From NCBI GenBank assembly GCA_026874595.1, contig CM049317.1:72005618-72069617 (forward strand): 64,000 bases of DNA, read 5' to 3'. This DNA is from Sipunculus nudus (Eukaryota > Annelida > Sipuncula > Golfingiida > Sipunculidae). Position numbers and translations under genes: made by a program. Within the stretch, counting starts at the first letter, position 1; every line of letters begins with the position of its first letter. The notes below the pieces were generated by a model that was not told the origin of the DNA, ran no database searches, and saw only the letters and a list, made by a program, of their open reading frames with translations. Positions 5,519-63,991 of this stretch are shown in pieces.

Positions 5519-6481
5519 TATTTCCTAAACGCCATTCACCAGTATATTATAAACTGAAGTCACACCTTTTCAAGACTTCAATGTAACTTTGAAGACGACC
5601 TTTCTTCGCTTACTGTTTGGTTGAATAAATGTGTCACTCTCATGTTTAACAGAACCGTTTTTTGGTGCACTCAATATTTTTTTTTCATATCAGAGATATC
5701 AATGTCGACAGTACGATTTCCATTTAATTAACGAGAAGGGAAACAGGAGGTGTTTAGCCATACGAAAATACTACATAGGAGCTGTTAACAGCTATGTTCA
5801 TCTCTACGGCGTACTGAGTTACAGCTAAGGTACGTATATGAAATACTAGAATCGAATGTGATGTATCCTATAATGTAAAAACAATAAACTTTATTATATA
5901 GTGTGACCGTGTTTTAATTAACTGAAAAAAGAAACAATCCCCGTTATTTTCAAAATGTCGCATGTGTTAACCATGGAACTGTGCTTGAGGAAGGTTGTAT
6001 ATGGATCATATATAATGTAACAAAACTGGTACGCTGGGCGTTTTGGGTGTAGGTCAGCGGGAGGAGATCTGAGGATATTATTCGAGAAGAGAAAGGGAAT
6101 TTCTTGGTTGGTTGGCGAAAAGATGAGTGGGTAATCAACACGGCAGGTCCAGGTATCATGTGAAATTTCTCAATTAATGAGAAAATGTATTAAGTTATGA
6201 CTTCATATGTGCCAATAATTCACTAATATTAACGATTTACTGGTCATATTTCACAATCTTCACGATCAAATATGTAAATATCGGAATATATTATATAATA
6301 TTATGTATATATCCTTTAGGAATGTGACTCCCGTTAACTTTTTTTGTATTTCAGTGCTGAGAAATCAAGAAGGGTATTATTTTGAGAATGACAAAGAAAC
6401 GGAATTCTTATGCCAATTAAAATTAAAATGCATAGTTACAGGGATATGGTTGGAACAGTATGTCAAGGACATAGACCTGCA
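5519..6481 (+). pseudogene. Receptor unit A: relic CTLD exons 3, 4 and 5
   Basis: Three exon relics align with the receptor family. Exon 3 (5694-5829) keeps GNRRCLAIRK, but the expected phase-1 frame hits TAA and its length (136) is 8 short of 144. Exon 4 (5954-6152) has lost its acceptor (CAA for CAG) and is about 41 bp short, yet keeps WYAGRF-like and VGWRKDEWVINT-like codons. Exon 5 (6355 to about 6481) has a good acceptor and an open frame (QEGYYFENDKETEF), but then diverges from the family before a possible donor at 6482. No exon 1 or 2 is found; LINE fragments occupy the place where they would lie. The signal, membrane and tail exons are absent, so it is very probably dead. Confidence 0.75.
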
Positions 6482-21301: not shown

Positions 21302-22906
21302 TAGTTATTGATTAACGCCATGTTAGGGGCAGTGGACTGTAAACTGTGTATAAATCCGATTATCCTCAACCTTAACACCAAACTCTGTCAAATTGCTGCT
21401 TTATGCATAGTCGTTTCGGTTCCTCTATAAATATGTTAATTAGGGCAGTATTGAGGTAATCAGGGGTCAAACGGTCATGAAAATCTAGTGACTCATCAGC
21501 GCTGAAAATAGGTTGAAGAATCAAATTATATGAAATCCCTGACCCCTGAGGCATAGAGAACAAATGAATTTATACCATATCGTATCTTTTTTTCATGTTC
21601 AGCCAATGAAAAAAAAATAGCCAGGCCATATATAATCCGAAAGGGGCTAATGTAGGGGCCAAGATCTTTCTTCTTAAAAGGCCATGCATTGATATATAGT
21701 TGCTTTTATTAACATGGTTATGTGGGAATCAGCAGGCACTTGAGAGCTGTTTACATTACAGATCAAACAGCATACTTCAAATCCTAAATGGCTGCCAATA
21801 TGATGGCCGTCAATTTCGTCAAATTTATTCATTATCATTATAAATGCAATTATACATACCATGGGTGATTTAGTGTAAATGTCATTCTGAGTTGTTTACT
21901 GTAAAAGAAGAATTGACTCCTTGTAATACAAATAATGCCAGGTGTAAAAGAATATATAAAAAGGATTGTCAAGCTGATTATAATGAAAGGATGCGTCTTT
22001 ATCTCTTGTTTAGTATAAGCAACTAGTTCTGTAGTTCTAGAATAACTTTTTTTGTAATTATGCCATTTCAATTTCCCCTACCCCTAATAACAAAGTTTTT
22101 TTTATGTTTAAAAATTATTTAGCATGTGTAAGCATGTTATATACCCATTTATAACATACCATGAAACCATTTGGTCTATTTTCCCCCTTAACATACATGA
22201 TGATTCTTCAGTTTCTAGTTCTTGGCCAAAGGTAAAAGTTTCATGAACTTTCGGCCAATACTGACCTAATATGCACATTTTATATATCTGTATTGGCGAA
22301 AAATGTATCTTTAAGGCAAAAAGCCGTGGAAGCTTGGTGAAATTAGTGAATGTCTGTCATCCCCGGAAATTACATCCATATTCACTGAATGACAAATGAA
22401 AACTTAATGATATGTCAGATATTTACCAGTCTAATAAATATTCGGCTTAACTTTATTCCTCCTTATTTGAAATAACTAGTTTACGATTTTATGTTACACA
22501 TTTGTACAGAACTTCAAATAATTAATTTAGCAATTCATGATCGTTGACAACAGAGTCTATTAAAAGTCATTTTTTCCCTCTCTCTGGAAATGATGTCGTC
22601 TCAGCTGAACAAGGGAATGTTGTTTTTAACATTATATGGAATTACATGATAAGTGAGGGACAGATCAAGGGTGTAATAACACGAAAGAGTTAAAAGCTCA
22701 AATATTAACACTTTTTATGCCTGTGGAATGATTTTTTTTCCAAAAAAGGCAGAATACTTGGAACAATTTCGGAAATTCATGTTCAAAGCGTTAAACATTT
22801 AATTTTTTGGGGAGGGGGGGTAGTCACCCCAATAGTGAGACTTAATTGGTGATGGTACCATGTTTTTATCAACTGCGGAGAGTTAAATGGTATTTCTTAT
22901 TTCCAG
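21302..22906. other. AT-rich DNA between the inverted-repeat element and unit D
   Basis: No exon 1, 2 or 3 of a receptor could be found upstream of unit D. A G-run occurs near 22812-22819. No other element is recognised. Confidence 0.4.
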
Positions 22907-23304
22907 AATGGCGCATTAGTTTACATTGGAACTGTGTGCGTCAAGTAAAAGGTTGAATTTCGGCAATTTTTGGTGTGAAAAACTGGTACACTGGGCGATC
23001 TGACTGTAGCTCAGTCGGAGGACATCTGTGGACGTAAAAGTTTTTTTTCCAAACTTTAACTGAAAAAAGTAAAGAAAATTCTTTGGATCGATTGGCGGAA
23101 AGATGATTGGGTGATCGATAAAGCAGGTAATGGTATGGTTTGAAACCTCCTCGTAAATGAGAAAAAAAGTAATAAAAATATGCGTTAAAAAGTGCCTATA
23201 TGGTCACCTGTTCAGTAACAACTGAGAAACTCATGACATATCCTAATACGTATTAATTAATATAACAAATATATAATAACAATATATATATAAATATATA
23301 TATA

Positions 23305-23341
<37 letters not shown>

Positions 23342-24076
23342 TATCAGGTTCTGTATATCGTTTTATAATATAGCTCAAGGTGTCCATGACTGTCAGTGCC
23401 GAGATATCAAGTTGGGAATAACTTTTTCAAAAGACAGAGGAACGGGATTTTGATGCGAAGTAATTACTTTCGGGGACAAAATAAAATGGAGGATGTATAA
23501 GTGCAATCGTACGGCTGCAACTGTCAAATATATCAAAAGGTAGGTTTGGAATATTACATTAATTATATATTAAAAATTACATTAATGTTATAATATAACG
23601 TAGTTACTCTGATACTATGCTTGTAATTATTATTAAATATGTAAACAGACTTGAAAGAGTTCTGGTTCAAAGTACTTTTATTTATATAGCGTGCTATCTA
23701 GCACTTTTTATACTGTCCATTAGTCTAAACCCGGTTTTCATTGACCATATTATTGATATGAGTTTAAAACTACATTTTGTTTCATTTAATTACCGTAAGC
23801 CTTCAATTATCAACCAATGAATTTTTATTTACTCGCGGAGTGTTCAGCAAACGGTACAGAGATTGATTAAAACAGAGTCGCTTCATGGACCAGTTATATG
23901 ACGCGGTGAATTTCTCACGGGACCATCCCAGGAGCAATGCAGCTATGTCAAGTATCGCGGAAATGACCGTTTTAATGTCAGTATACGCTGTAATCAAGGA
24001 AAGGTCAGGAATCTTCGAGGGAACGCCTGGATCAGGAATTTATGCACCGCACTTGGTGTACACGATATACCAGTAG
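22907..24076 (+). pseudogene. Receptor unit D: relic exons 4 and 5 plus a divergent tyrosine tail
   Basis: Exon 4 relic (22907-23126, 220 nt against 240) is frameshifted but keeps NWYTGRSDC-like and WRKDDWVIDKA-like codons. Exon 5 relic (23397-23539, 143 nt) is also frameshifted. No exon 7 is visible. The exon 8 homologue reaches TAG at 24074-24076. It carries SKRYRD, then an in-frame TGA, then from 23885 an open tail with QLYDAV, SVYAVIKERSG, GIYAPHL and VYTIY. The first two tyrosine motifs match unit F in sequence and in their 29-residue spacing. The rest of the tail differs, so D comes from a separate sub-lineage. Its tail reads better than its ectodomain, which is odd for a uniformly decaying copy. 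Confidence 0.8.
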
Positions 24077-25720
24077 CAGCGAAAGTTAAGAAAAATGGTT
24101 TGGTAAATGCAGACGAAGAATCACGTGTGTTAGAGGGATAAATATGACACCCCTATATAACTAGATAAAGGAACAACCAACATTATTGAAAAGAACCCAT
24201 AAAACACAATTGTAGAATTATATGCTTATCCTTGGTTATGTTTATGTGTTACTTGTGATTAATAATCATATGGTTACAAGTATAATTATGTCGACATAAA
24301 TTTTAGTTTATTTGATATTTTATATCTAACTTGCAAATATGAGTATTATTTCATTATTTGTTAAATTATATATTTATATATATGTAATTATACAGAGAAA
24401 AAAAATGCCTAGAGTTGTAATAACTTAATCTTTATCATGTGCTTGTCAGACTGGTTAACAATAAAATGTTTATCATGTGTGTGTCAGACTGGTTAACAAC
24501 AAAATGTATTTTTTTTATTCAAAATGTAGTGAATGTGTATATAAGATATAGAAAAATCTAATTTGCCCTTAGTTTTTAGAATCCGCATTTCTCTATGTCA
24601 CATGTCTACCTAAAACAGTTGTTCAGTTTTCCTTATAACCACTGATAATGTTTAGAAAACTATGGATAATTCTATGCAGAGGCAGAATAATGTTTTAAGT
24701 ATTTGCAGCAATAATACAAATAGTCTTCTTCGGTATTAATGTCATTGCATACCAGCCAGTTTGCGACTATACCCGGCCACATATTAACTGTTCGAGTTCC
24801 CTGACTATATCATATACGCCACCTGACCACAATAAGCTTCAGCCTAACCCATATTCAAACTAAGCATCTTCTAGAAATAGAACATTAATTAATATGTTTA
24901 ACATCCATTTTTTTTAATCATGCATTGATACATTATCTTGGATATATCAGCATACGAAGTACTTCGCGTACGGTGGATATGATATTAGTTAATAAAACTG
25001 AAAAAAACATTAATAGTTATCATAAATGATTTATCGGATCGAGAGATTACTTGTTATTCATTAACTATGTGCTTTATGCTGCCATGATGGTAATATAACT
25101 TTGCTTTGTAACTGTAAACCAATGCTTTGTACGATTTAATAACATGTATGCTGCAACCTTGAGGATATGTTTATAATTATGTTGTGTTGACTCTGTTCGC
25201 TTAAGTCATGTGTATTTTACAGATGTATCTACCATTTCCTTCAGTAGTTTAGTATAGGTACATGTATTGAAGATGCCTCTAAGATATTATGCCTATTAAT
25301 TATTCAGAGAAATATTCACGACATCCTGTGATTGTGAATAACCATGTCAGTAAAAATATTAAAAAATAGCATTGTGATCTACTGTTCAACATGACCTGCA
25401 GTCACTAAATCTGCGAGCCACTGTGCTTTTGTTATCTGTAATTATTAAATTAAGTACACTGCACTGCCTTTCTGTTATCAAGCCATTTCACCTGTAATTC
25501 CTGATAAAGTACATAATAGCGTCTATGTATCAACCGATTTTAGTCTATGATTATTTTTCTGCTTTCAGAGCCCCCTTCCACTTCCGCCCCTCAGCACACA
25601 TGCATACTCCATGCTTAATGTTTTTGGAGGTCTTTTTTTAAATCTTCCTGGATTTACCCCTTAAAGATCTTGCATTCAAAATTAATAAATATAGACAAAA
25701 GGTCTATATTGGGTTGGCTG
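24077..25720 (+). other. Unit D 3' flank, homologous to the 1.48-kb repeat R
   Basis: Diverged blocks match 57099-58581 in order: ATGGTTACAAGTATAATT, GAATAACCATGTCAGTA, then a C-rich stretch followed by CATGCATAC..CCATG and a TGGAGG..TTaAA..CTTGCAT phrase near 25570-25680. The flank is therefore old receptor 3' sequence. No coding content is seen. Confidence 0.65.
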
Positions 25721-48212: not shown

Positions 48213-48288
48213 ATGGATCGCCTCTTCTTCAATATGTTCCTGTTCCTCAATATAAAATATTTGAATCCTGCTCATGGTCAAATCAACG
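48213..48288 (+). CDS. Unit E exon 1, signal peptide
   Basis: Encodes MDRLFFNMFLFLNIKYL followed by NPAHGQIN. A hydrophobic core follows a short N-region, with likely cleavage after AHG or close by. The donor is GGTAAGG and the exit phase is 1. Confidence 0.85.
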
Positions 48289-50068
48289 GTAAGGTCATTC
48301 GTACAAGGCTCTTCTTTGTGATACGGAAGGTTATCCAAAATCGGTCATTTAACATGTACCCATTATTATTTGAAGTCCTGCGAGGCATATTATCAAACGT
48401 CTTTATTAGTCTGCAACATTAAATGGCCAAGATGATGTTACATGAAGGGATAAACGTAACCATTCTCACTAAATATGCACACAGTCTAGTATTTAATTTT
48501 AAGTTTAAACATAAAAATAACCGCGATATTTACCCCTTCTTTATTCCTATCCATGCGAGTGGGCTGGATATCAACCCATGACCCATGATCAGATAAGTGA
48601 TATTTATTTGCCATTGCCATGGGGCACCTCTAATCTGATTTTCTGTTCAGACATGTTCCTCAATGCTACTGCACCGATGAACTATTCGACCGCAGTATCT
48701 TACTGCAGAGAGAGGGGAATGACTCTTCCTTCGACATTGTCGGAGACAGAACACAAGGCCCTGATGGAGCTTATGATCACAAGCGACACAAGCAAAGTGT
48801 GGCTGTCTGTGCAGCGTGAAATAACTGAAGAGTGGCTATCCGTTAATGGGTCTAAAGGTGAAACTGATTTCATAAAACGTTTTAAACATAGAGAATATCT
48901 ATATATTTAGTATTCGTGAGCATTTGGAGACACCATAAACGCTATTAACAAGTTATCATATATTGAAGCCATGCCTTTTTAGATAAACAATACGACTTTG
49001 AACACGACCTTTATAATTAATATGTTTTAAAAAATGCAGTATCAGTCTCGTGGGTAACACGACCACTCATTGGTTCATTCAAATTTTTTTTTCATATCAG
49101 AGGAGTCGATGTCGGGAGTGCAATTTCCTTCAAATAACGGGATGGGAAATAGGAAGTGTTTAGCAATAAGGAAACACGGAGCACGAAATATTCAAGCTGT
49201 TAACTGCTTTCATCCTGTCGACGGCGCAATCTGTTACAGGAAAGGTACGTACAATGAGAAATAAGAAATTGACTGTCATGTATTTTATGGTATAAAAACA
49301 ATAAACTATATGAAATCAAGTGTTTTGATGAACCAAAGAAAGTTTAACGATCCCTGAGTTTTTTTTCAGAATGTCGCATGTGTCTAGCATGGAACTGTGC
49401 TCGTGTTAAGAAAGGCTGTATATGGGTCATATTTAATGTACCAAACTGGTACGCTGGACGTTCTGAGTGTAGGGAAGCGGGAGCCGATCTGTGTATGTTA
49501 TCTGAAGTCTGGAAAGACAGTTTTTCTAAACTTAGAGTGGATGAAAGAAAAAAGGATTTTTGGGTTGGTTGGCGAAAAGATGATTGGATAATCAACACAG
49601 TAGATACAGGTATCAGTTGGAACATCACCGTAACTGAGCATAAAAAGTATTCAAATTATGCGTTAATAAGTGTCAATATGATTACCTGTTCAGTAACAAC
49701 CGACGAACTCGTAATATTGTCTAATTTATATTTAATAGTATAACAAATATAGGAATACAAAAAATGTCATATAAGGTCACATATACCATGTAGCTTAATT
49801 TGCATCTTTATGATTTTCAGTGCATAGATATCAAGTTGAGAATTATCTTGAAAAGGACAAAGATACGGAGTTCTCATGCGCAGTGATCGCGTTCTCGAAC
49901 CAAATTACTTGGAGGATGTATAACTGCAGTCTTTCTGCTGCGACTGTATGTCAAGTAAATACATCCAAATGTAGGTGTGAAATATAACCTGTTTTTATAA
50001 TACTTAAAAAAGAAACTCCTCCATTTCTTCGGCTTGCCAGTGCCAAAATAAACAATGTGATAAGTCAG
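48213..50068 (+). CDS. Receptor unit E: two-CTLD protein lacking membrane and tail exons
   Basis: Exons 1-5 (48213-48288, 48651-48857, 49101-49244, 49370-49609, 49821-49970) have good GT/AG sites, join in phase 1 and are open throughout. They encode a signal peptide and two CTLDs. CTLD1 has cysteines in SYC, KCLA, NCF and ICY; CTLD2 in EC, SC, NC and VCQ, the usual four-Cys pattern. No EPN/QPD or WND calcium-sugar motif is present, so canonical sugar binding is unlikely. An exon 6 remnant (about 50006-50068) has lost its acceptor and first codons. Exons 7 and 8 are missing because repeat M begins at 50115. If the exon 5 donor is not used, the frame adds CRCEI and stops at 49987, giving 277 residues, secreted. 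Otherwise it might splice into unit F. Extracellular recognition is the likely role; the ligand is unknown. Confidence 0.75.
48651..48857 (+). CDS. Unit E exon 2, CTLD1 N-half
   Basis: 207 nt, phase 1 at both ends. It holds the first CTLD helix motif NYSTAVSYCRERGMTLPS and the KVWLSVQREITEEWLSVNGS segment (the WIGL..W.W region of CTLDs). Possible N-glycosylation sites are NAT, NYS and NGS. Confidence 0.88.
49101..49244 (+). CDS. Unit E exon 3, CTLD1 C-half
   Basis: 144 nt, phase 1 at both ends. It contains the last three CTLD1 cysteines in GNRKCLAIRK, AVNCF and AICYRK. The donor is GGTACGT. Confidence 0.88.
49370..49609 (+). CDS. Unit E exon 4, Cys-rich linker and CTLD2 N-half
   Basis: 240 nt. 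It starts CRMCLAWNCARVKKGCIWV, with four cysteines as in long-form CTLDs, then WYAGRSECREAGADLCML and DFWVGWRKDDWIINT. The donor GGTATCAG differs slightly from the GGTATGAG seen in unit F. Confidence 0.86.
49821..49970 (+). CDS. Unit E exon 5, CTLD2 C-half
   Basis: 150 nt. It encodes RYQVENYLEKDKDTEFSC, then SNQITWRMYNCSLSAATVC, supplying three CTLD2 cysteines. The donor is TGTAGGTG; reading through it gives CRCEI and a stop at 49985-49987. Confidence 0.86.
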
Positions 50069-50114
50069 GTAACAAAAAACTCCTTGTCCTACATAAACCG
50101 TATTTCGCCAACTT

Positions 50115-50335
50115 AGGTAGCAACAGCTGCAGATTAATCATATGTCAGCTATGTGATGAATATGTCTGCCACATTTGGTGCAAAAAGCATCAGGTATTTT
50201 AAAGATATTTGGTAAAAGAATAGATTGAGAGCAAAATACAGTTTATATATAACACATTACATCAACATGTGTAACAACATGCTTAACAATAAGCTACCAT
50301 TGATTATCTATGTTTAACGGACTTCCTGTCAATCC
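50115..50335 (+). repeat. Dispersed repeat M, copy 3; junction of unit E with the unit F cassette
   Basis: Starts AGGTAGCAACAGCTGCAGAT directly after CGCCAACTT of receptor intron 6. In unit F the same CGCCAACTT (near 55789) continues as normal intron. 50114/50115 is therefore the duplication breakpoint, and the cassette offset is 4265 bp from 45850. Confidence 0.88.
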
Positions 50336-52503
50336 ACCGATGTCATATTCTGTCTGGAGTGTTCAGTGCCCGGAGGGTAAGGGTTAACGACATCAGGGAT
50401 GTGCAATATGACACCCGTGACAACTAGATAGTGCCTTATTCCATACCAGAAGGTTTAGGGTTAACCATATGTCGGGCATATAATGCAACCGATGTCAGGG
50501 CCTTTCTTTAGTATTCCATGCCCGAAGGGTTAGGGTAACAATCATCACGGACGGGTCATCTGACAACAGTGAAAAGCACATACTGCATTGTTCCATGCCC
50601 GAAGGGTAACGGTTATTCAAATGTCAAAAATATTATATGCCACCGATGTCATGGTTTGTCTGAAGTGTTATTTCATGCCCAAAGGGTTAGGGTTACCCTA
50701 ATATGAAAGACGGGTCAAATGACATCAGTGACAAGCAGATACTGCATTATTTCATGCCCGAAGGGTTTGGGTTACCGACATCAAGAACGTGCCATATGAC
50801 TTCAGTGACAAACACATATTGCGTTATTACATACACGAAGGGTTAGGGTAATTACCCAAACGTCGAAATATTATATGCCGCCGATGTCATGGTCTTAATT
50901 GCCTATGCCATGCCCGAAGGTTACCGATATAACGGACGTGTCAAATAGCATTGACCAGCAATTACAGCATTATTTCATGCTAGAATGGTTAGGGTTTCCC
51001 ATATGCCGGACATATTATAAGCCACCAATATCATGGTCTTTCTGGAGTATTCCATACTCGAAGGTTCGGGTTACCACATCACGTACGTGCATATGACAAC
51101 AGTGACAACAACTTACTGCATTATTCTATGCCCTAAGGGATAAGAGTTTCCGATATTTCGCCAATATTTTATGCCACCAATGTATGCCACCAATTATGCC
51201 ACTAATGTATGACGAACGTTTTATATGACACCAGTGACAAGCACTTACTGCATAATTCCAAGCCTGGAGGCTTAGAAATACCCATATCACGGACGTGTAA
51301 TATGCGAACAATATCATGGTCTTTCTGGAGCATTCCATGCCCGAAGGGTCAGGAATTATCCCTATCATGGACGAACCTGTCAAAGAAATATGCCTGCACT
51401 TTGCTATGCAAACAGATCCTGTTTTCTCGGGGATATTTGGTACTTTATTAAACAATAAGTATGCAGACACTAGACATATTACAGTTGACTGACTAGAACA
51501 TATTTTATTTAACAAAAAGCAAATATGAGATTTACCATCCAAGTGTCGACATATTATATGCCAACAATATCATGGTCTTTCTGGAGTATTCCATGCCCGA
51601 AGGGTCAGGGTTATCCCTATCATAGACGAACCATATGACACCAGTGACAAGCATTCACTGCATTTTCCATGCCCGGAAGGTAAGGGTTACCCATATCACG
51701 GACGTGAAATATGATATCAGTGACATGCATTTACTGTTTTATTCCATGCCCGGAGGGTTAGGGTTACCAATATGTCGGACATTTTATATACCACGACCAT
51801 CATGGACTAACTGGAGTATTCCATGCCTAAAGGGTTAATGTAACTAACATGACGGACGTGTCATACGACACCAGTGACAAGTACTTACTGCTTCATTTCA
51901 GGAACGTAATCCCCCAATATCATGGTCTTTCTGGAGTATTCCATGCAAGAAGGGTTAGGGTTACCGACATCAAGTACGAGCTATATGAGATCGGTGACAA
52001 ACACATATACCAGTATTCCATACCCAAAGGATAAGAGTTACCCTCAACAAGGACGTTTTATATGACACTAGTGACAAGTACTTAATACGTTTTTCAATGC
52101 CCAAACGATTAGGGTTACCCGGAAGAACGACGGGTCATATGACATCCGTGACAAGCATTCACTGCATTATTTCATGCCCAAAGGATTAGGGTTACCCACA
52201 ACAAGGACGTGTTATATGAAACTAGTGACAAGCACTTACTGCATTATTCCATGCCCGAGGGTAAGGGTTACCCATATATCGGACACATGTCACCAATGTC
52301 ATTGTCTTTCTTAAGTATTCCACAACTGAAAAGTTAGGGTTACCTCGGCATTGAAGTATCATACGACACCAGTGACAAACACATATTTCATTATTCCATA
52401 TGCGAAGGGTTAGGGCTACCCATATGTCGAAATATAATATACCGCCGATATTATAAGCCCCAATATTATGGTCTTTCTGGATTATTCCATGCAAGAAGGG
52501 TTG
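50336..52503 (+). repeat. Satellite B array upstream of unit F
   Basis: Same monomer family and starting order as 46061-47104 but about twice as long, with local reshuffling. It is interrupted at 51395-51545. Confidence 0.93.
51395..51545 (+). repeat. Non-satellite insert in satellite B
   Basis: Shares GGGATATTTGGTACT and ATGCAGACACTaGAcATATT, then ACAGTTGA and TCCAAGTG, with about 44860-44975 outside the cassettes. The flanking monomers are ordinary satellite B. Confidence 0.75.
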
Positions 52504-53315
52504 CTGTGTTACCGTGCTTCCTATCTCCTCCCTTAGTTATTTTGGTAGCAAATAACTGCTATTTGCGCGTGCGTGCATGGGGGCCCCTCTGGCCGGGCGC
52601 TCAGACCTCCACTCCCTCTCGACGCAGTTTGAACAATGCTTGCTATGCTACCATACTTCCTTCCCCCTTCAGTTATTTTTTTGGGGTAACAAATGGCTGC
52701 TATTTGCGCGTGTGTTTCACGGGACCCCTCTGCAATGCCGCTCTGAACTCCACTTCCGCTGCTGACAAGTTTTTTAATGCTTCCTATGCTAACATATTTC
52801 GAACCCCTCCTCATTTTTTTGTACCAAATGGCTCCTATTTTCGCGTGCGATTCATGACGTTCCCTCTGCGAGGCCGCTCTGAACACCACTTCCGCTGCCG
52901 ACAGGTATTTTTAATGCTTGCTATGCTACTATATTTCCCACCCCTTCCGCTTTTTTAGTGCCAAAGGGGTGCTATTTGTGCGTGCGATTCATTGCGGCCC
53001 CTCTGTAAGGCCGGTCTGTCCTCCAAACCCCTCTCCTTTGCCTGCAGTTTTTATACAATGCTTGCTATGTCACCATACTTCTACACCCCTCCCTATTTTT
53101 TTGGTACCAAATTCATGGGGACACTGAGACCTCTACTCCCCCCGGAGGCAGTTTTAACAATGCTTGCTATGCTACCATACTTCCTCTTCCCCGCCCCCGG
53201 TTTTTTATGGCAAGTAGCTGCTATTTGCGCGGGCGATTCATAGGGTCTTCTGCGAGGCCGCTTTGACCTCTACTCCCCCTGGCCACAATATGAACAATGC
53301 TTGCTATCCTACTCA
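52504..53315 (+). repeat. GC-rich minisatellite C upstream of unit F
   Basis: Six to seven units of about 125 bp match 47105-47890 unit by unit at many positions. The open frames that cross it on both strands are by-products of its GC content. Confidence 0.9.
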
Positions 53316-53447
53316 TTTTTCGTACCCGCAGTGAATTATTCGAGGAAGAAACGGCCTGCGAAAATCCAAAAAGTCTGATAAGCTCAATTACAGGCCGCTA
53401 CCGAAAAACCGACAGTTCACCGATAAATAATATCTATACACTTACAT

Positions 53448-53622
53448 GTTGTATTACATAACCATTATCATATCTGATTAATTATGTGGTTTTCTTGCTG
53501 TGTTTGGTAATTGGTTGTGTTAATACTTATCATATGACTCACATTAAGGCTGTTTATTTTACGAAATATTCAATAGAGAACAGTGGTATCATAACTGTGA
53601 CTGCAGTCGTTAATTTTAAAAT
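53448..53622 (+). promoter_or_regulatory. Candidate proximal promoter of unit F
   Basis: Contains TTGTATTACATAACCAT (one change from the other units) and the near-palindrome TGACTGCAGTCG about 25 bp before the ATG. It lies between minisatellite C and exon 1. Confidence 0.4.
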
Positions 53623-53698
53623 ATGGACCGAATCTTCTGCAATCTGTTCCTGTTTCTCAGTATAAATTATTTGAATCCTGCTCATGGTCAAATCAAAG
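53623..53698 (+). CDS. Unit F exon 1, signal peptide
   Basis: Encodes MDRIFCNLFLFLSINYL, then NPAHGQIK. The donor is GGTAAGG and the exit phase is 1. Confidence 0.88.
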
Positions 53699-54068
53699 GT
53701 AAGGTCATTGGTATAAATCTCTTCTCTTTTGAGATACGGAAGATTGTCCGAAATTGGTCATTTAATATGTTCCTGTTATTATTTTCTGTTATAAGTTTTG
53801 TGAGGCATATTATCAAACGTTTTTATTAGTCTTCCACATTAAATGGCCCGTTTAAAGTTACATGAAGGGATAAAAGTTACCATTCTTACTAAATATGGAC
53901 ACCGTCTAGCATTAAATATTATGTGTAAACATTAAAATAACTGCGGTACTCACTCCTTATTTATTCCTATCCAGGAGAGTGGGCTGGATATGAAACCATG
54001 ACTCTTTAAGATTAGTGATGTTTATTTGCCATTGCTATGGGGCACCTATATTCTTATTTTGTGTTCAG

Positions 54069-54258
54069 GCATGTTCCTCAATGCTACTGCACCGATGAAC
54101 TATTCGACCGCAGTATCTTACTGCAGTGAGAGGGGAATGACTCTTCCTTTGACATTTTGCCCTGATGGAGCTAATGACCACAAGCGACACAAGCAAAGTG
54201 TGGCTGTCTGTGCAGCGTGAAATAACTGAAGAGTGGCTATCCGTTAATGGATCTAAAG
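54069..54258 (+). pseudogene. Unit F exon 2 with a 17-bp deletion
   Basis: Opens normally (MNYSTAVSYCSERGMTLP). It then reads LTF and shifts frame where units E, G and H read TLSETEHKA-type codons. Both splice sites are intact. Confidence 0.92.
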
Positions 54259-54499
54259 GTGAAACTGATTTCATAAAACGTTTTAAACATAGAGAATATC
54301 TATATATTTAGTATTCGTGAGCATTTTGCGACACCCTAAACGCTATTAACAAGTTATCATAAATTGAAGCCATACCTTTTAGATAAACAATGCGACTTTG
54401 AACACGACCTTTATAATTAATATGTTTTAAAAAATGCAGTATCAGTCTCGTGTGTAACACGACCACTCCTTGGTTCATTCAATATTTTTTTCATATCAG

Positions 54500-54643
54500 A
54501 GGAGTCGATGTCGGGAGTGCAATTTCCTTCAAATAACGGGATGGGAAATAGGAAGTGTTTAGCAATAAGGAAACATGGAGCACGAAATATTCAAGCTGTT
54601 AACTGCTTTCATCCTGTCGACGGCGCACTCTGTTACAGGAAAG
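54500..54643 (+). CDS. Unit F exon 3, CTLD1 C-half
   Basis: 144 nt, almost identical to unit E exon 3, with ALCYRK in place of AICYRK. Both splice sites are canonical. Confidence 0.85.
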
Positions 54644-54768
54644 GTACGTACAATGAGAAATAAGAAATTGACTGTCATGTATTTTATGGTATAAAAACAA
54701 TAAACTATATGAAATCGAGTGTTTTGATGAACCAAAGAAAGTTTAACGATCCCTGAGTTTTTTTTCAG

Positions 54769-55008
54769 AATGTCGCATGTGTCTAGCATGGAACTATGCT
54801 CGTGTTAAGAAAGGCTGTATATGGGTCATATTTAATGTACCAAACTGGTACGCTGGGCGTTCTGAGTGTAGGGAAGCGGGAGCCGATCTGTGGATGTTAA
54901 CTGAAGTCTGGAAAGACAGTTTTTCTAAACTTAAAGTGGATGAAAGAAAAAAGGAGTTTTGGGTTGGTTGGCGAAAAGATGATTGGGTAATCGACACAGT
55001 AGATACAG
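54769..55008 (+). CDS. Unit F exon 4, linker and CTLD2 N-half
   Basis: 240 nt, open. CRMCLAWNYARVKKGC replaces one linker cysteine of unit E with Tyr. It then has SECREAGADLWMLTEVWKD and EFWVGWRKDDWVIDT. Confidence 0.87.
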
Positions 55009-55223
55009 GTATGAGTTGGAACATCACCGTAACTGAGCAAAAAAAAGCATTCAAATTATGCGTTAAAAGGTGCCAATATGATCACCTGTTCAGTAACAAC
55101 CGACGAACTAGTAATATTGTCTAATTTATATTTAAATAGTATAAAAAATATATGAATACAAAAGAAATGTCATATAAGGTCACATATACCATGTAGCTTA
55201 TGTTGCATCTTTATGGTTTTCAG

Positions 55224-55373
55224 TGCATAGATATCAAGTTGAGAATTATCTTGAAAAAGACGAAGAAACGGAGTTATCATGCGCAGTGATCGCGTTCTCG
55301 AACCAAATTACTTGGAAGATGTATAACTGCAGTCTTTCTGCTGCGACTGTATGTCAAGTAAATACATCCAAAT
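55224..55373 (+). CDS. Unit F exon 5, CTLD2 C-half
   Basis: 150 nt, open: KDEETELSCAVIAFSNQIT, then YNCSLSAATVCQV. The donor TGTAGGTG is the same as in unit E. Confidence 0.87.
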
Positions 55374-55673
55374 GTAGGTGTGAAATATTACCTGTTCTTA
55401 TTTTTCTTAAATACTCTGCATGAAATAATTTCATCAAATTTCATCAAAATTTCATTGTGCACTCCACTCTGAAATGAATTCCAAACACGACTTTTTATTT
55501 ACATCCCTCGTTAACTATTAAGCATGATGTCTGACATTTTCTCGTTCTTGCTGTGTTAATTCCGTAAAGCACTGTTATTTCAATTAAAGTGTTCGATTAC
55601 CTAGGAAGGCTTTACAGGATGGTTTTAAGAGACAGGTGAAAGGAATTTAAAAGATGCATAATGTAATTCACAG

Positions 55674-55751
55674 ACGAAGATGAGGCAGAAAAAAGAAACT
55701 CCTCTAATTCTTCGGCTTGCCAGTGCCAAAATAAACAATGCGATAAGTCAG
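55674..55751 (+). CDS. Unit F exon 6, stalk
   Basis: 78 nt encoding EDEAEKRNSSNSSACQCQNK followed by QCDKS. It is acidic, then Ser/Asn-rich with N-glycosylation sites, then has three cysteines that could pair between chains. Confidence 0.8.
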
Positions 55752-56438
55752 GTAACATAAAACTCCTTGTCCTACATAAACCGTATTTCGCCAACTTCAT
55801 ATATTTTGCATGTTTGTGTCTTTAAATTAAGCCGTCTATTCTACCGCCGTTAGCATATAAACATATAAATTGTGGTAAGAGAAAAATGTAACAAAGTTAT
55901 CAAGGAGTCCTTCATCCCTGATTTGAAATTAAGATCGCTGTTTATATTATGTTACCTTGCTGTGTTACATTAACATTATACGTGTCTTTGATGTATTTTC
56001 CCAATGTAACGTTTCGAAGTGTTAAATAGCTACATTCATGGATCCAAAGTCAAAATTCAAATATATGTGCGTTTTAATACAAACAGCTGTAACACTTCGT
56101 CTAGTAATTTGGTTAATTTACTAGTGACGTCATCCAAGCCGGCATTCGACTGAAATGTTACAACCCAGAAATATGTATGAACATCGTTCGTAATATATAT
56201 ATATAACACGGGTATACACGCTTTATACATATATACTCGTATCTTCTGTTGATGCCTTACATTGAGAGAACATTATGTAGGAATACATTTTAAATCATAC
56301 TACATCTTGATGTCTTTGTTGATATCAAGCGTACCGACTCTCTTGATTTGTTGTAAAACAATTAGACGGTGTTAAACGTAGGTTTATCTGTCCTCAAAAA
56401 AGCAACTCTCACAAAACTCTTATATCCCTTCGTTGTAG

Positions 56439-56541
56439 GCTCCTTGATGATAACAGTTTTACTGGGATGCCTCTGTCAAATCATGATAATATTAATAACC
56501 CTCGGATTCTATTTGTGCATCCGAAAAAGAAAGAGACTGAG
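56439..56541 (+). CDS. Unit F exon 7, transmembrane helix
   Basis: 103 nt. It encodes a hydrophobic span LMITVLLGCLCQIMIILITL, then GFYLCI, then a basic stop-transfer RKRKRLR. Entry phase is 1 and exit phase 2. There is no charged residue inside the helix, so pairing with an ITAM adaptor through a helix charge is not indicated. Confidence 0.85.
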
Positions 56542-56726
56542 GTAAACCTTATCCTTATAATTCACTTTACTTTGGACAATATATTTGTCAAACATATAAC
56601 AACAATCACGAATTAGTAAAAAAAAGTTTAAAGCTTTTAATTGTGTGCCTCATATACAGTAATTGTATTTACATTTAAATATCCAAAGCCTTAACATAAC
56701 AACCAACGATTTTATTTGAATTGCAG

Positions 56727-57039
56727 TCACTTTACCAAGCGGTATAGAGAAAGATTACATCCGCGTCACATCATGGAGCAGTTATATGACAAGCTGACCT
56801 GTTCACGTGACCGATCCAAAAACAGTCCAGCTAAGTCCAGTTTCGAGGAAATGAACAAAGAAATGCCAGTATACGCTGTGGTCAGGAAGAAGTCGAGAAA
56901 AGAAGAGGAAACGCCGGAGTCTGGAATCCATAGCACAACACTTGCCGTAGAAGATGATACCGGTGGCAACGAAGTGAGAAAATATGAGGAGAAGAAGATT
57001 CAATGGTGTCTGAGAGGGATAAATATGGCACCTATATAA
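56727..57039 (+). CDS. Unit F exon 8, cytoplasmic tail with tyrosine motifs
   Basis: The 103-residue tail starts SHFTKRYRERL. It carries QLYDKL and, 29 residues later, PVYAVV; both are YxxL/V motifs usable for SH2 recruitment or AP-2 sorting. A basic KKSRKEEE patch and KYEEKK follow, and it ends MAPI-stop. PVYAVV lacks the S/I/V/L residue two before Tyr of a strict ITIM; the unit D equivalent, SVYAVI, has it. Confidence 0.83.
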
Positions 57040-57098
57040 ATCTAGAGGAATGAACCCATATAACACTTTCAAGAATGAAGATATATTGTCCTTTGCTT

Positions 57099-58581
57099 AT
57101 GCGTAGTTCGTGATAAATTATCTTTTAGTTACAAGGATAATTGTGTTTCAACAACAGTTTCAGTTTGTTTGATATTTCTGTTATCCTATCAGCCTTTGAT
57201 ATATAAACTGTATATATAAAATATGTAAATATTTTTATTATGTGTTCATTTGTTACTATGTATGGAACATGTTTATGATTTCTAGAGTTGTTACAACAGT
57301 TTAGTCTTAAACCTACAAATATTTATATTTTTTCGGTTAAGATTATGACTAAATCTTAATTATATGTTTCAAAGACTTGTAAGCAACGAATGCAGATTTA
57401 TTTATTCAAAATATAAAAGTGAATGTATTGTGATGTATATAGGATGTCAATTAATCTATTCTGCTTAGTTGTGAGAAACCACACGTCTCAATGTCATATG
57501 TTTACATATGATAGCAACATATTGTTAATCATTCCTTATAACCACGGATAATTTTAAGAAAAGCTGCTGGTCATTGTGTACACAAGCAGAGTAATTTGAC
57601 AGCAATTACAGCATAAATAAAGAATCGTAATGCCATTGCATACCGGACCTCAATAAGCAATACTGACTCTGTATTACTTCTTAGATTTAGTCGGGATTTC
57701 TAAGGAAATATAAAGAAGAATAGGTCTTTTTCTATATCATGGATATATAAGCAGAAGGTACATGCAACAATCGCTAACTTCGTGCATAATTAGTTGATCG
57801 AATCCCATGGTTACTTTCCGCTTAATATTGGACGTTAATTAATTGATTATGATATATTGAAACTTACATTCTGCTTTGTAAATGTAATCGACGCTAGGTG
57901 GGATAAATTATATGTCCGCTGTAGCCTTGAGGTTATGTATATAATTATATTCAAATATAATATTCAAAGACAAAGTCATGCTTGTGAATAACCATGTCAG
58001 TACAAAATACACAACACAATACTGGATCCTTCGAAATCACCTGTTAACAACAACCCGTTATGGATAACAAATGTTTTGTGTAATAACTGTACATAAAACT
58101 ATAAAGGATACTGCACTGTCTCCTTGTTTTCAAGTCACTGTAACTATAGATAAGGTATATAATGGCATCTGATCAACTGATTTTAGTTTAACTATGACTT
58201 GATCCAACTTTCTCAGACCCCCCCCCCCCCCTCCCAAGCACGTAAGCATACACTTCTTCGATCCATGTTTTGGAGGCCTTAAATAGCTCTGGATTAATAA
58301 TAACAGATCTTGCATCCCTAGACAAATAGAGTACAGATAATACAAATAATATGTAGTTATATATTGAATATATTATCTGTTATTAATGAAACATTGCCAG
58401 TTCTACGGAAATAATATGACATATATAGCGTTACATAGTATAACCTCATATACTTTTTACGCACATGCCTAAAAAGACATATGAGACAGCTGAAAGAGGA
58501 CAGTAGTTTTAGTGTAAATGGAATATGTATTAGTTACATTTTTTTTATGTTTTTAGACGGAAAACATACCAAAAAATAAAT
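57099..58581 (+). repeat. Repeat R, copy 1 (receptor 3' flank)
   Basis: A 1483-bp copy starts ATGCGTAGTTCGTGATAAAT about 60 bp after the unit F stop. The first 250 bp differ from the other copies at many sites; the remainder is almost identical. It holds a C-run near 58219-58232. Distantly related flank follows unit D (24235-25700). No coding content. Confidence 0.95.
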
Positions 58582-60061
58582 ATGCGTAATTCGTGATAGA
58601 TTATCTTTTAGTCACAAGAATAATTGTGTTTTAACAACAGTTACAGTTTGTTTGATATTTCTGTTATCCTATCAGCCTTTGATATATAAACTATATATAT
58701 AAAATATCTAAATATGTTTATTATGTGTTCATTTGTTACTATATATGGAACATGATTCTGATTTCTAGAGTTGTTATAACAGTTTATTTTTAAACCCACA
58801 TATATTTATATTTTCGGTTAAGATTATGACTAAATCTTAATAATATGTTTCAAAGACTTGTAAGCAACGAATGCAGATTTATTTATTCAAAATATAAAAG
58901 TGAATGTATTGTGATGTATATAGGATGTCAATTAATCTATTCTGCTTAGTTGTGAGAAACCACACGTCTCAATGTCATATGTTTACATATGATAGCAACA
59001 TATTGTTAATTATTCCTTATAACCACGGATAATTTTAAGAAAAGCTGCTGGTCATTGTGTACACAAGCAGAGTAATTTGACACTAATTACAGCATCAATA
59101 AAGAATCGTAATGCCATTGCATACCGGACCTCAATAAGCAATACTGACTCTGTATTACTTCTTAGATTTAGTCGGGATTTCTAAGGAAATATAAAGAAGA
59201 ATAGGTCTTTTTCTATATCATGGATATATAAGCAGAAGGTACATGCAACAATCGCTAACTTCGTGCATAATTAGTTGTTCGAATCCCATGGTTACTTTCC
59301 GCTTAATATTGGACGTTAATTAATTGATTATGATATATTGAAACTTACATTCTGCTTTGTAAATGTAATCGACGCTAGGTGGGATAAATTATATGCCCGC
59401 TGTAGCCTTGAGGTTATGTATATAATTATATTCAAATATAATATTCAAAGACAAAGTCATGCTTGTGAATAACCATGTCAGTACAAAATACACAACACAA
59501 TACTGGATCCTTCGAAATCACCTGTTAACAACAACCCGTTATGGATAACAAATGTTTTGTGTAATAACTGTACATAAAACTATAAAGGATACTGCACTGT
59601 CTCCTTGTTTTCAAGTCACTGTAACTATAGATAAGGTATATAATGGCATCTGATCAACTGATTTTAGTTTAACTATGACTTGATCCAACTTTCTCAGACC
59701 CCCCCCCCCCCTCCCAAGCACGTAAGCATACACTTCTTCGATCCATGTTTTGGAGGCCTTAAATAGCTCTGGATTAATAATTACAGATCTTGCATCCCTA
59801 GACAAATAGAGTACAGATAATACAAATAATATGTAGTTATATATTGAATATATTATCTGTTATTAATGAAACATTGCCAGTTCTACGGAAATAATATGAC
59901 ATATATAGCGTTACATAGTATAACCTCATATACTTTTTACACACATGCCTATAAAGACATTTGAGACAGCTGAAAGAGGACAGTAGTTTTAGTGTAAATG
60001 GAATATGTATTAGTTACATTTTTTTCATGTTTTTAGACGGAAAACATACCAAAAAATAAAT
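58582..60061 (+). repeat. Repeat R, copy 2
   Basis: A 1480-bp direct copy of the preceding repeat, differing from copy 3 at only a handful of bases. Confidence 0.97.
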
Positions 60062-61235
60062 ATGCGTAATTCGTGATAGATTATCTTTTAGTCACAAGAA
60101 TAATTGTGTTTTAACAACAGTTACAGTTTGTTTGATATGTCTGTTATCCTATCAGCCTTTGATATATAAACTATATATATAAAGTATCTAAATATGTTTA
60201 TTATGTGTTCATTTGTTACTATATATGGAACATGATTCTGATTTCTAGAGTTGTTATAACAGTTTATTTTTAAACCCACATATATTTATATTTTCGGTTA
60301 AGATTATGACTAAATCTTAATAATATGTTTCAAAGACTTGTAAGCAACGAATGCAGATTTATTTATTCAAAATATAAAAGTGAATGTATTGTGATGTATA
60401 TAGGATGTCAATTAATCTATTCTGCTTAGTTGTGAGAAACCACACGTCTCAATGTCATATGTTTACATATGATAGCAACATATTGTTAATTATTCCTTAT
60501 AACCACGGATAATTTTAAGAAAAGCTGCTGGTCATTGTGTACACAAGCAGAGTAATTTGACACTAATTACAGCATCAATAAAGAATCGTAATGCCATTGC
60601 ATACCGGACCTCAATAAGCAATACTGACTCTGTATTACTTCTTAGATTTAGTCGGGATTTCTAAGGAAATATAAAGAAGAATAGGTCTTTTTCTATATCA
60701 TGGATATATAAGCAGAAGGTACATGCAACAATCGCTAACTTCGTGCATAATTAGTTGTTCGAATCCCATGGTTACTTTCCGCTTAATATTGGACGTTAAT
60801 TAATTGATTATGATATATTGAAACTTACATTCTGCTTTGTAAATGTAATCGACGCTAGGTGGGATAAATTATATGTCCGCTGTAGCCTTGAGGTTATGTA
60901 TATAATTATATTCAAATATAATATTCAAAGACAAAGTCATGCTTGTGAATAACCATGTCAGTACAAAATACACAACACAATACTGGATCCTTCGAAATCA
61001 CCTGTTAACAACAACCCGTTGTGGATAACAAATGTATTGTGTAATAACTGTACATAAAACTATAAAGGATACTGCACTGTCTCCTTGTTTTCAAGTCACT
61101 GTAACTATAGATAAGGTATATAATGGCATCTGATCAACTGATTTTAGTTTAACTATGACTTGATCCAACTTTCTCAGACCCCCCCCCCCCCCCCAAGCAC
61201 GTAAGCATACACTTCTTCGATCCATGTTTTGGAGG
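60062..61235 (+). repeat. Repeat R, copy 3, truncated
   Basis: Ends in TCCATGTTTTGGAGG, where copies 1 and 2 continue CCTTAAATAGC. The next base starts unit G sequence, only 40 bp from its ATG. Confidence 0.97.
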
Positions 61236-61275
61236 GCAAAATAACCAACCGTTAATGCTGCCATTAATTAAAAAC

Positions 61276-62095
61276 ATGGATCTCTTCTACAACCTGTTCC
61301 TCTTCCTCGGTATAAAATTATTGAATCATGCACATGGTCAAATAAAAGGTAAGTCCATTTATCTGAAACTCTTACTTTTGTGACTCGGACGATCAAAATA
61401 ATATTTAATGTGCTCCGAGGGATAATATTAAACGATGTCTTTATTTTACTGCTACTTTGAATGATCTAGATGAAGTTACATGAAGTGAGGAAATTTGTTT
61501 GCATGTATTTTTACGTGTAAACCTGATAATAACCTCAGAAGTTGTATCCCTAATTTATTTGTATCTTAGAAAGTGATTGTCGATATGAACAACAGGTAAT
61601 GTAGGCAAAATGTGACACATCATTTGCCATTGTATTGGGGTAATGATTTTGGATTTGTATTTAGACATGTTCCGCAATGCTTCCCTACACATGAACTATT
61701 CGACGGCAGTATCTTACTGCAATGAGAGGGGAATGAGGCTTCCTTCAACACTATCGGAAACAGAACACAAGGCCCTGATGGAGCAAATGAACACAAGCAA
61801 CATAAGAAAAGTGTGGCTGTCTGTTCGGCGTGTAATAAGAGAAAAATGGCTATCCATGAATGGATTTAATTAAAGGTTCAACTGATCTAATAATGTTTTA
61901 TTCTCAGATAATACCCTTTTAATACTTAAGATATGATTTTTTATTTTATTTGTTCACCGAATAATTTATTTGTTTATAAAACCAGACCCACTCTTGTTTA
62001 CAAGAATCACTTCTTGATTCATTCAGTATTTTTTAATGTCGGAGGGCCAATGTCGGGAATTCTGTTTGCTAGAAATATGAAAATGTGATTGTGAA
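61276..62095 (+). pseudogene. Receptor unit G: exons 1-2 and a broken exon 3
   Basis: Exon 1 (61276-61348) is intact: MDLFYNLFLFLGIKLLNHAHG. Exon 2 (61665-61875) is open through KVWLSVRRVIREKWLSMNG, but a 4-nt insertion (211 nt) creates TAA just before the donor. Exon 3 begins near 62052 with a lost acceptor (GG for AG) and falls out of homology after about 62090. No exon 4-8 follows. The usual upstream promoter sequence is missing because repeat R stops 40 bp before the ATG. The unit is closest to H in exon 1 (xHAHGQI). Without its promoter and 3' exons it is a fragment. Confidence 0.88.
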
Positions 62096-62460
62096 TATTG
62101 CGCATGTCTCTTATTCGTAGAGCATCTACGGATATTTCGCAGGAACACAATCCGTGTACCGGCGATGTTTACAATTTAGTCCTTAAGTAGTTACCGGCGG
62201 TTTATTGTTTCGACGTGTTCTTAATTAAGTTTTGTCACAGAAGCCTGATAATGTTTTTTTTTAATAACGCCGGCCTTGAATAGACGCCGGCTTTGTTAAG
62301 ACACCGGGACAAAGCAGGGTCTGAAAAAATAACGCCCGGACGTCTGATCAACGAAGTACGGTATAAACTGTTCATTTGTTTACAATCGGTTGCTTTCAGT
62401 GCCATTTTCTTATAGACTACTTAATTTAACATATCTTAATGAACATTTTCCATTTTCCCA
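62096..62460. other. Spacer with a short GC-rich patch
   Basis: GCCGGCGTCTATTC-like and GACGCCGGC phrases near 62268-62294 suggest an old repeat. No exon is seen. Confidence 0.35.
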
Positions 62461-62680
62461 ATGTATCGCCTCTAGCCTATGTACATCATATGCGGATACC
62501 TTTTTTGGATGTTCAAGTCAGCTTGGTGTCACAATACCAGAATAGTATCCAAGCGTTACCCTGGGCCAGCAAACAGTGGTTTAGATACACAGGTACTCCA
62601 ACAGTTTCCTGCTAATACCACAGTCTGTCATCTCCAGTTCTCTACATACCCTACTAATGGACAGCCCTAATGAGGCTAGG
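62461..62680 (+). repeat. Receptor upstream flank repeat P, copy 2
   Basis: Matches 11240-11470 (TCATATGCGGATACC, GGGCCAGCAAACAGTGGTTT) and lies the same way round upstream of unit H. Confidence 0.72.
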
Positions 62681-63139
62681 GCAAGTCAAGTACCATAAAC
62701 CATAGTTATTCAGTAGCCTTCTCATCCATTTTCAGCAATAGGTGAACTTATTAATACACAATAAAATCATGTATAGGCACATACTACTCCTCTTCAGTAA
62801 CCGATGAAAAATGTTAAACAGTAAAAGATCATAGTAATGTGCCACCATAACCACAACATACTTCGTCCCACGGTAATGAACTAAATGGATTAGACGAACA
62901 CAGGCAGAATCAATTTAAGAACAAACACATAATATCCATACCTTTTGTTTGTATTATATAACCATTCGCTTCATATTGGATTAATTATGCAAATCCAAAA
63001 CCACGCATGTGATCTTCCTGCATTAGATAATTGAATCATATTAATCCCAATCATATGACCAAACATAAGTCCATTTATTTTAAAACAAATGTCAAAGGAC
63101 AATACATAACCAACCGTCACTGCTTCATTAATTTAAAAC

Positions 63140-63991
63140 ATGGATCGCTTTTTCTACAATCTGTTCCTGTTCCTCAGTACAAAATTATTGTATCATGCAC
63201 ATGGTCAAATTACAGGTAAGGGCATTTATGTAAAACTCTTCTTATTATAACTCGGAAGATTATAAATTCTGAAATTATTCAATGTGCTGCGAGGGATAAT
63301 ATCAAACGATGTCTTTATTTTTGTCTTCTACTTTGAATGATACAGATGATGTTACACGAAGGTTGAAAGTTACGATTCCTAATAATTATGCACATAAGCT
63401 AACATGTTTTCCTACGTGTAAACCTCTGTAGTTGTATTCCTTATTTATCCCTATCTGTGGATATGAACAACAAGAAATATTGACAAAATGTGACATATTT
63501 TTGCCATTGTATTTAGGTAATGAATTTTGCTTTGTATTTAAACATGATCTATTTCTTTTGCCTGATTTTGTCTGAGAGGGGTATTTATGAAAGGTTGTTT
63601 TGCATTGGTCTAATTAAATCGTTTGAACAAAATGTAGATAGAAAAAATATACAATTCTTTATCAGAATATACACATGCCAACATGTGGGGTTTCCTTTTA
63701 TTACATGAACGCCTAAAATTATTAACAGTATGTGATATATCGTTTGCCATTTAACTGGTGAAGTGAATTTGATTCTGTATTCAGATATGTTTCTCCTCGC
63801 AACTACACCCATGAACTATTCGACCGCAGTATCTTACTGCAGGGAGAGGGGAATGACGCTTCCATCAACACTATCGGAGACAGAAAACATGGCCCTGAAG
63901 GAGCTAGTGACCACAAGCAACACTAGCAAAGTGTGGTTGTCTGTGCGGCGCGAAGTAACTGCAGAGTGGCTATCTGTAATTGGATCTAAAG
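63140..63991 (+). CDS. Receptor unit H: 5' part of an apparently intact two-CTLD gene
   Basis: Exon 1 (63140-63215, 76 nt) encodes MDRFFYNLFLFLSTKLLYH plus AHGQIT, a signal peptide. Exon 2 (63785-63991, 207 nt) has the CTLD1 opening TPMNYSTAVSYCRERGMTLP and SKVWLSVRREVTAEWLSV. Splice sites are GGTAAGG, TTCAG and GGTAAAA; phases are 1. No lesion is visible. The shared TATA-like block lies at 62948-62964. The intron contains a broken partial copy of the exon 2 entry region (about 63500-63600). The window ends nine bases after the exon 2 donor, so later exons are unseen. Expected product: signal peptide, two CTLDs and perhaps helix and tail as in F. Confidence 0.82.

Follow-up and report, generated by a model that had tools for sequence, protein, structure and literature searches.

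What gene family fills the last quarter of a 64,000-nucleotide stretch of the Sipunculus nudus genome (contig CM049317.1, here C12; C12:72005618-72069617, the whole of which we call the window), and what might its products do? An earlier note on this DNA had described positions 48213-63991 as a run of eight same-strand units, each encoding a receptor with two C-type lectin-like domains (CTLDs) in tandem and a tyrosine-bearing tail. We searched the window, 80 kb upstream and 120 kb downstream by tblastn with one peptide per exon, called lesions by exon-wise alignment to the intact unit (unit D) together with frame reading, and searched the 1.43-Gb genome (153 contigs) for relatives. On balance we favor, with some reserve, a cluster shaped by the birth and death of genes for type I receptors that carry a tandem CTLD pair and a tyrosine tail, most likely with an innate immune or phagocytic role.

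Unit D and the exon plan of the family

Unit D alone is intact. Its exons 3-7 lie beyond the window end, in flanking DNA (locus L013), where positions are window-relative.

63140..63215, + strand: exon 1, leader (complete gene model)
63785..63991, + strand: exon 2 (complete gene model)
64238-64372, + strand: exon 3 (flanking DNA)
64497-64736, + strand: exon 4 (flanking DNA)
64940-65089, + strand: exon 5 (flanking DNA)
65488-65565, + strand: exon 5b, stalk (flanking DNA)
66165-66261, + strand: exon 6, transmembrane (TM) (flanking DNA)
66460-66787, + strand: exon 7, tail (flanking DNA)

The unit D model keeps 436 codons open with GT/AG at every intron, and is predicted to encode a leader, CTLD1, CTLD2, a cysteine-containing stalk, a TM helix and a tail. 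From the exon lengths, introns 1-6 are in phase 1 and the last intron is in phase 2. The exon plan on the + strand (leader; CTLD1 on exons 2 and 3; linker plus CTLD2 on exons 4 and 5; stalk on 5b; TM on 6; tail on 7) is the one that had been read from the sequence alone. Each CTLD is thus split over two exons, and no CTLD lies within a single exon.

Matches to the Pfam Lectin_C profile identify the CTLDs of D and of a second unit, A. When spliced translations were searched, as the earlier note had proposed, both D domains exceeded the profile's cut-off of 22.6 bits on their own (CTLD1 35.6 bits, CTLD2 33.4 bits), scores well outside what chance would give; spliced D matched at 7.3e-16 and spliced A at 3.7e-18, each in two stretches. 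Beyond the two CTLDs, D contains no Pfam domain above its own cut-off, and an NCBIfam search of D returned no family. The four cysteines per CTLD that had been noted can be assigned in D (CTLD1 44/114/127/136, CTLD2 173/239/255/263; fold assignment by eye), and the linker together with the N-terminal end of CTLD2 contributes four further cysteines. The D protein contains none of the triplets EPN, QPD and WND, as expected from the earlier reading that it has no calcium-sugar signature, and so lacks the mark of a classical calcium-dependent carbohydrate-recognition domain (CRD). The closest sequence match in the PDB, mannose receptor 2, reached just E 0.01, no closer than a generic CTLD, which agrees with the earlier statement that no named vertebrate family matches.

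Hydropathy analysis of D reveals a sole region at or above 1.6, residues 295-324, which we take as the TM helix (windows at or above 1.6 start at 295-306; peak 2.67 at residue 303). A basic stop-transfer run, IRKRTK, follows the helix. One TM helix between a leader assigned by eye and this basic run supports the claim of a type I, single-pass protein.

The D tail has 116 residues and five tyrosines, three of them in a YxxΦ context (YDTL, YAVV and YINL). Its C-terminal YGTYINLEE is in frame in D, and similar letters occur out of frame in the neighboring units B and E. Read in the D frame, B differs by two synonymous changes alone, and E has lost the stop and carries a single replacement (N to D) besides one synonymous change. 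The comparison suggests that D retains the older C-terminal reading.

Copies, relatives and selection

Eight same-strand (+) two-CTLD units do exist, but they are spread over ~5.7-64 kb of the window, and only four (A-D) start inside 48213-63991. In window kb they span 5.7-6.4 (U1), 11.9-13.5 (U2), 14.5-17.3 (U3), 22.9-24.2 (U4), 48.2-50.1 (A), 53.6-57.0 (B), 61.3-61.9 (C) and from 63.1 (D). Within 48213-63991 no unit is complete. The common exon plan is real, but A, C and U1-U4 carry only parts of it. The earlier note was right in outline about the gene family, and overstated the number and integrity of the units in that interval. The other units of the window are as follows.

5693..6413, + strand: U1, frameshifted remnants of exons 3, 4 and 5 (tblastn, alignment to D)
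11902..13508, + strand: U2, exons 1, 2, 4 (broken), 5 and 5b; exons 3, 6 and 7 not found (tblastn, alignment)
14516..17279, + strand: U3, exons 1-5b interrupted by stops and deletions, and a trace of exon 6 (tblastn, alignment)
22906..24155, + strand: U4, exons 4, 5 and 7 with stops and frameshifts (tblastn, alignment, frames)
48213..48288, + strand: A exon 1, leader, with GT donor (tblastn)
48651..48857, + strand: A exon 2, first half of CTLD1 (tblastn, alignment)
49101..49244, + strand: A exon 3, second half of CTLD1 (tblastn, alignment; Lectin_C in the spliced protein)
49370..49609, + strand: A exon 4, CxxCxxWxC linker and first half of CTLD2 (tblastn, alignment)
49821..49970, + strand: A exon 5, second half of CTLD2 (tblastn, alignment, frames)
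50007..50068, + strand: A stalk-exon remnant with its acceptor side lost, at most ~36 nucleotides (nt) after exon 5 (alignment, frames)
53623..57039, + strand: B, all exons 1-7 (tblastn, alignment, frames)
56439..56541, + strand: B exon 6, TM helix (tblastn)
56727..57039, + strand: B exon 7, tail with YDKL and YAVV (tblastn, frames)
61276..61873, + strand: C, exons 1-2 alone, with a stop in exon 2 ahead of the donor position (tblastn, alignment)

In unit A, exons 1-5 are open with AG/GT sites, and exons 6 and 7 are absent. Relative to D, unit B lacks 17 nt of exon 2 and 1 nt of exon 7. Downstream of the window, unit E lies on the same strand at 72.6-76.0 kb (window-relative), with a frameshift in exon 4 and an altered tail end; its stalk exon was not found by alignment to D. 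Unit F, a divergent two-CTLD unit, lies in the opposite orientation on the minus strand at ~86.5-82.3 kb (locus L014-L015, 86501-79378, window-relative). Its exon 4 is 44% identical to that of unit A and its exon 5 was recognized by eye; no TM exon was found for it, and an open frame bearing HYVNIYVEE lies downstream. The 80 kb upstream of the window gave no exon-peptide match with E <= 0.05 by tblastn.

Repeats accompany several units. Unit A lies between two stretches of a 77-bp satellite-like repeat (46049-47042 and 50466-52429; 22 copies, one repeat family), and unit A with the satellite that follows it seems to be the counterpart of unit B with the satellite that precedes it, ~5.4 kb apart. 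A unit of ~1,480 bp occurs in three tandem copies from just after the B stop (57098) to C exon 1 (~61200). Near the start of the window, a 343-residue open frame at 4068-5099 resembles, by eye, the reverse transcriptase of a non-LTR (long terminal repeat) retrotransposon.

The family extends well beyond the window. Scoring 150 of 342 candidates gave at least 34 genomic matches to the exon-2 peptide, 28 of them on C12; for the exon-4 peptide, scoring 150 of 367 gave at least 100, with 78 on C12. We also searched for a linker signature at the start of exon 4, AGA-N-TGY-N6-TGY-N6-TGG-N3-TGY, which encodes C-x2-C-x2-W-x-C just past the intron boundary. It occurs at 79 places, compared with 25 for a reversed-pattern control: 42 on C12, 13 inside 0.5 Mb on C3 and 24 elsewhere, the last being about the control level. 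The 13 places on C3 form a second cluster (C3:63646614-64117846).

The D-type tail has four matches genome-wide, none outside this cluster. A second tail type, from a cluster near 49 Mb, has 18 matches at 16 loci, exclusively on C12, and all but one of these loci (15 of 16) have a same-strand exon-4 match 1.9-5.3 kb upstream. By sequence, then, this sister subfamily has a predicted tyrosine tail of its own, different from that of D. The motif S[AV]YxxV, of the immunoreceptor tyrosine-based inhibitory motif (ITIM) type, is intact in 8 of 10 sister tails and stop-interrupted in 2 (L026, L037-L045); the sister tail also holds a proline-rich stretch. Of three distant paralogues read over their whole length, L026 and L025 (67.76 Mb) show a TM-like stretch and a tyrosine-bearing open frame after their CTLD exons; the third, L027, shows no clear tail.

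A Lectin_C search of the genome returned 151 matches, more than 50 of which are dispersed copies of near-equal score on contigs C1-C17 (for example C12:2526720-2527037 and C8:54904953-54906688). These copies mostly lie in open frames of ~360-382 residues, some in tandem ~1.4 kb apart, and look as if spread by a mobile element. Scoring 150 of 203 candidates also gave at least 141 C1q matches in the genome, and bivalves typically have large C1q families. No match to the haemocyanin beta-sandwich domain of molluscs turned up, a weak negative because the control genomes gave none either.

We calculated pooled ratios of nonsynonymous to synonymous substitution (dN/dS) from shared open exons for 14 pairs among A, B, C, D, E and U2, omitting the broken B exon 2 and E exon 4 and representing C by exon 2 only and U2 by exons 2 and 5. 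In 13 of the 14 pairs dS is at least 0.28 and pooled dN/dS is 0.34-0.60; single exons spread more widely, to 0.94 (exon 5, E-U2). The remaining pair, A-B, has dS 0.03 and dN/dS 1.0 (3 and 12 changes), with 1.71 for exon 4 alone (1 and 7 changes). The 49-Mb subfamily, compared over 8 of 10 ectodomains (without L029 and L030; L034 lacks exon 5) and 7 of 10 tails (without L039, L040 and L044), follows the same course: older pairs lie below 1, and values above 1 occur in individual exons of some close pairs, namely L026-L031 exon 3 (1.88, on 1 and 7 changes), L028-L031 exon 3 (1.20, on 2 and 9) and L031-L032 exon 5 (1.30, on 1 and 4). These ratios indicate that the older copies evolved under constraint; for the recent copies they do not separate relaxed from diversifying or chance change.

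An apparent homogenization of tail exons by gene conversion at L035 and L036 (ectodomain dS ~1 versus tail dS ~0.1) was rejected. A second CTLD unit, the one related to L026, sits between ectodomain and tail at these loci, so the pairing was wrong and both ectodomain-versus-tail comparisons were discarded.

Proposed function and the split arrangement

If the cluster does serve innate immunity or phagocytosis, the D protein would sit in the plasma membrane of haemocytes or epithelia, where CTLD1 and CTLD2 would bind a ligand without a classic calcium-sugar site. Since the sugar-binding triplets are absent, that ligand is probably a protein or a non-canonical glycan. Binding would be relayed through YDTL, YAVV and YINL, by SH2-type docking or by AP2-type uptake. 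We infer the immune function from domain content, clustering and tail, and the membrane location, ligand class, phosphorylation and cell type are inferred as well.

Several observations weigh against this proposal. The D leader is short and assigned by eye, and its windows stay below 1.6 in hydropathy. All window units other than D, seven of the eight, lack exons or carry lesions. Older pairs display constraint, not the positive selection that is frequent in pathogen receptors, and the close-pair ratios above 1 each rest on at most 11 changes. The D tail contains neither a strict ITIM ([SIVL]xYxx[ILV]) nor an immunoreceptor tyrosine-based activation motif (ITAM; YxxL/I x6-12 YxxL/I). Shuffled D tails have three or more YxxΦ motifs in 675 of 10,000 cases, so the motif count by itself is weak evidence. 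The YxxL/V motifs described earlier are real in D, but their number is only mildly above that in shuffled tails.

The local cluster could instead be essentially a graveyard: a side branch of the receptor family would be dying out here, D would at best be its only working gene, and the window itself would do little. The stops, deletions or lost exons of U1-U4, B and C, the missing TM and tail exons of A and the frameshifted exon 4 of E all fit such a picture. We nevertheless regard it as rather doubtful, because the older pairs have pooled dN/dS far under 1 and D is intact with all its splice sites, which argues for constraint through most of the cluster's history. Alternatively, the proteins may be endocytic or clearance receptors, with YxxΦ serving as AP2 sorting signals and the CTLDs taking up food, debris or glycoproteins. 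YDTL, YAVV and YINL all fit YxxΦ and all fall short of a strict ITIM or ITAM, and Elysia genes that encode two CTLDs and a TM region have been studied as candidate plastid-recognition receptors (PMC7663992). The sister tails, with a proline-rich stretch and, in 8 of 10, the strict ITIM-type motif S[AV]YxxV, argue against a purely endocytic family and point to signalling in that subfamily. We hold the endocytic explanation to be unlikely, if still worth serious thought.

Far less probable than either is a self- or allo-recognition receptor group, one of the options raised in the earlier note, to which we give very little weight. The genes are clustered, numerous and without sugar-binding triplets, and a few close pairs (A-B, L026-L031, L028-L031 and L031-L032) have exon-level dN/dS above 1. 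Natural killer (NK)-type CTLD receptors for protein ligands also lack sugar-binding triplets. Yet these ratios are based on very few changes and the older pairs are all below 1; bivalves, moreover, are not known to have a colony fusion system, which counts against this explanation.

One arrangement bears on how the damaged units might work. In two places, a unit with an open ectodomain and no membrane exons lies just upstream of a CTLD-damaged unit whose TM exon is open. In the window, A is the open ectodomain, and B has a broken CTLD1 exon, an open TM exon and a tail in which YDKL and YAVV persist. The upstream unit of the pair at 49.20 Mb (49.198 Mb) is divergent, with exons 2-5 open and a leader assigned by eye. 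In the downstream unit (49.202 Mb) the frame of exon 2 is broken and two cysteines of exon 4 are gone; a TM candidate (49.204 Mb) and a tail follow. The downstream unit resembles L026 only from inside exon 2 onward; its exon 1 was not found, and L026 exon 1 was likewise not identified. A block at 48.88 Mb (units at 48.882 and 48.886 Mb) is a copy of the 49.2-Mb block, and because the two are 95.8% identical we count them as one event. Of the tails of these two blocks, L041 contains a stop and the matched part of L045 contains none. The spacing of exon-4 and tail matches suggests further copies of the split block.

Could ectodomains and tails be separable modules, with an upstream ectodomain spliced to downstream membrane and tail exons? 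Since the D ectodomain introns are all in phase 1, such cross-splicing would yield a full receptor with the sequence as it stands. We consider this improbable, and simple decay also explains the split arrangement. Between the 49.2-Mb units there is an open, hydrophobic stretch whose donor is poor, a possible private TM exon, and the stop in the L041 tail and the 1-nt deletion in the B tail relative to D also count against a shared tail. If the tail were shared, one tail would serve more than one ectodomain while the skipped CTLD exons decay, a simple way in which an animal without antibodies could fit novel binding domains to an existing signalling tail.

We also considered unit A as an ordinary receptor with membrane exons of its own, and rejected this: a simple scan of the A-B gap (49980-53480) revealed no TM candidate, and the stalk acceptor is gone. 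Unit A may otherwise be a secreted form or a dead copy. The secreted form is conceivable because the frame of exon 5, read past an unused donor, ends ~five residues on.

By eye, AATAAA occurs inside the stalk exon of A (50047-50052), B and D. A truncated, polyadenylated, secreted form could end near this position.

Comparison with known lectin receptors

Among vertebrate proteins, the CRDs of mannose receptor 2 and DC-SIGN align with CTLD2 (best E 0.01). Members of the mannose receptor family are type I proteins with 8-10 CTLDs plus ricin-type and fibronectin type II domains, and DC-SIGN is a type II protein with one CRD. D, with two CTLDs and no other Pfam domain above its cut-off, falls outside the mannose receptor family.

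Closer parallels come from molluscs. Proteins with two CTLDs and a TM region (CTLD+CTLD+TM) are tabulated for Elysia cornigera and E. chlorotica in PMC7663992, which treats them as putative homologues of proteins such as mannose receptor 2 and versican. Some of these genes are reported to be higher in freshly fed E. cornigera, and in E. chlorotica they are reported to be higher in an early phase of plastid uptake. They resemble unit D in architecture, with two CTLDs and one TM region. In the oyster, CgCLec-TM1 and CgCLec-HTM are membrane lectins with a tyrosine motif in the tail; they associate with Syk and drive ERK and IL-17 responses, and CgCLec-HTM also TNF, as summarized in a review (PMC13027682). 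Like D, they are C-type lectins of the membrane whose tail bears a tyrosine motif; they are described as having a CRD with a hemITAM or non-classical ITAM, whereas D has two CTLDs and three YxxΦ motifs. The hemITAM consensus has an acidic lead, which the D motifs lack.

Bivalves have ~200 C-type lectin (CTL) genes, many species 300-500, and published trees annotate signal peptide, transmembrane domain and CTL-domain number (PMC10140915); the main-text passages of that study describe no family with this exon plan or tail. A C-type lectin expansion in the hard clam (PMC8905726) and an oyster Siglec (PMC5877582) provide further background. In the part of the mollusc lectin literature covered, we found no description of this exon plan, linker signature or tails.

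The pieces of the architecture are each known in molluscs. The Elysia CTLD+CTLD+TM proteins and the oyster lectins with tail tyrosines are precedents (PMC7663992, PMC13027682), and the architecture is less unusual than the earlier note implied. The S. nudus cluster links a class of two-CTLD, one-span receptors known in outline to a concrete gene structure, a genome-wide exon signature and tails specific to each subfamily.

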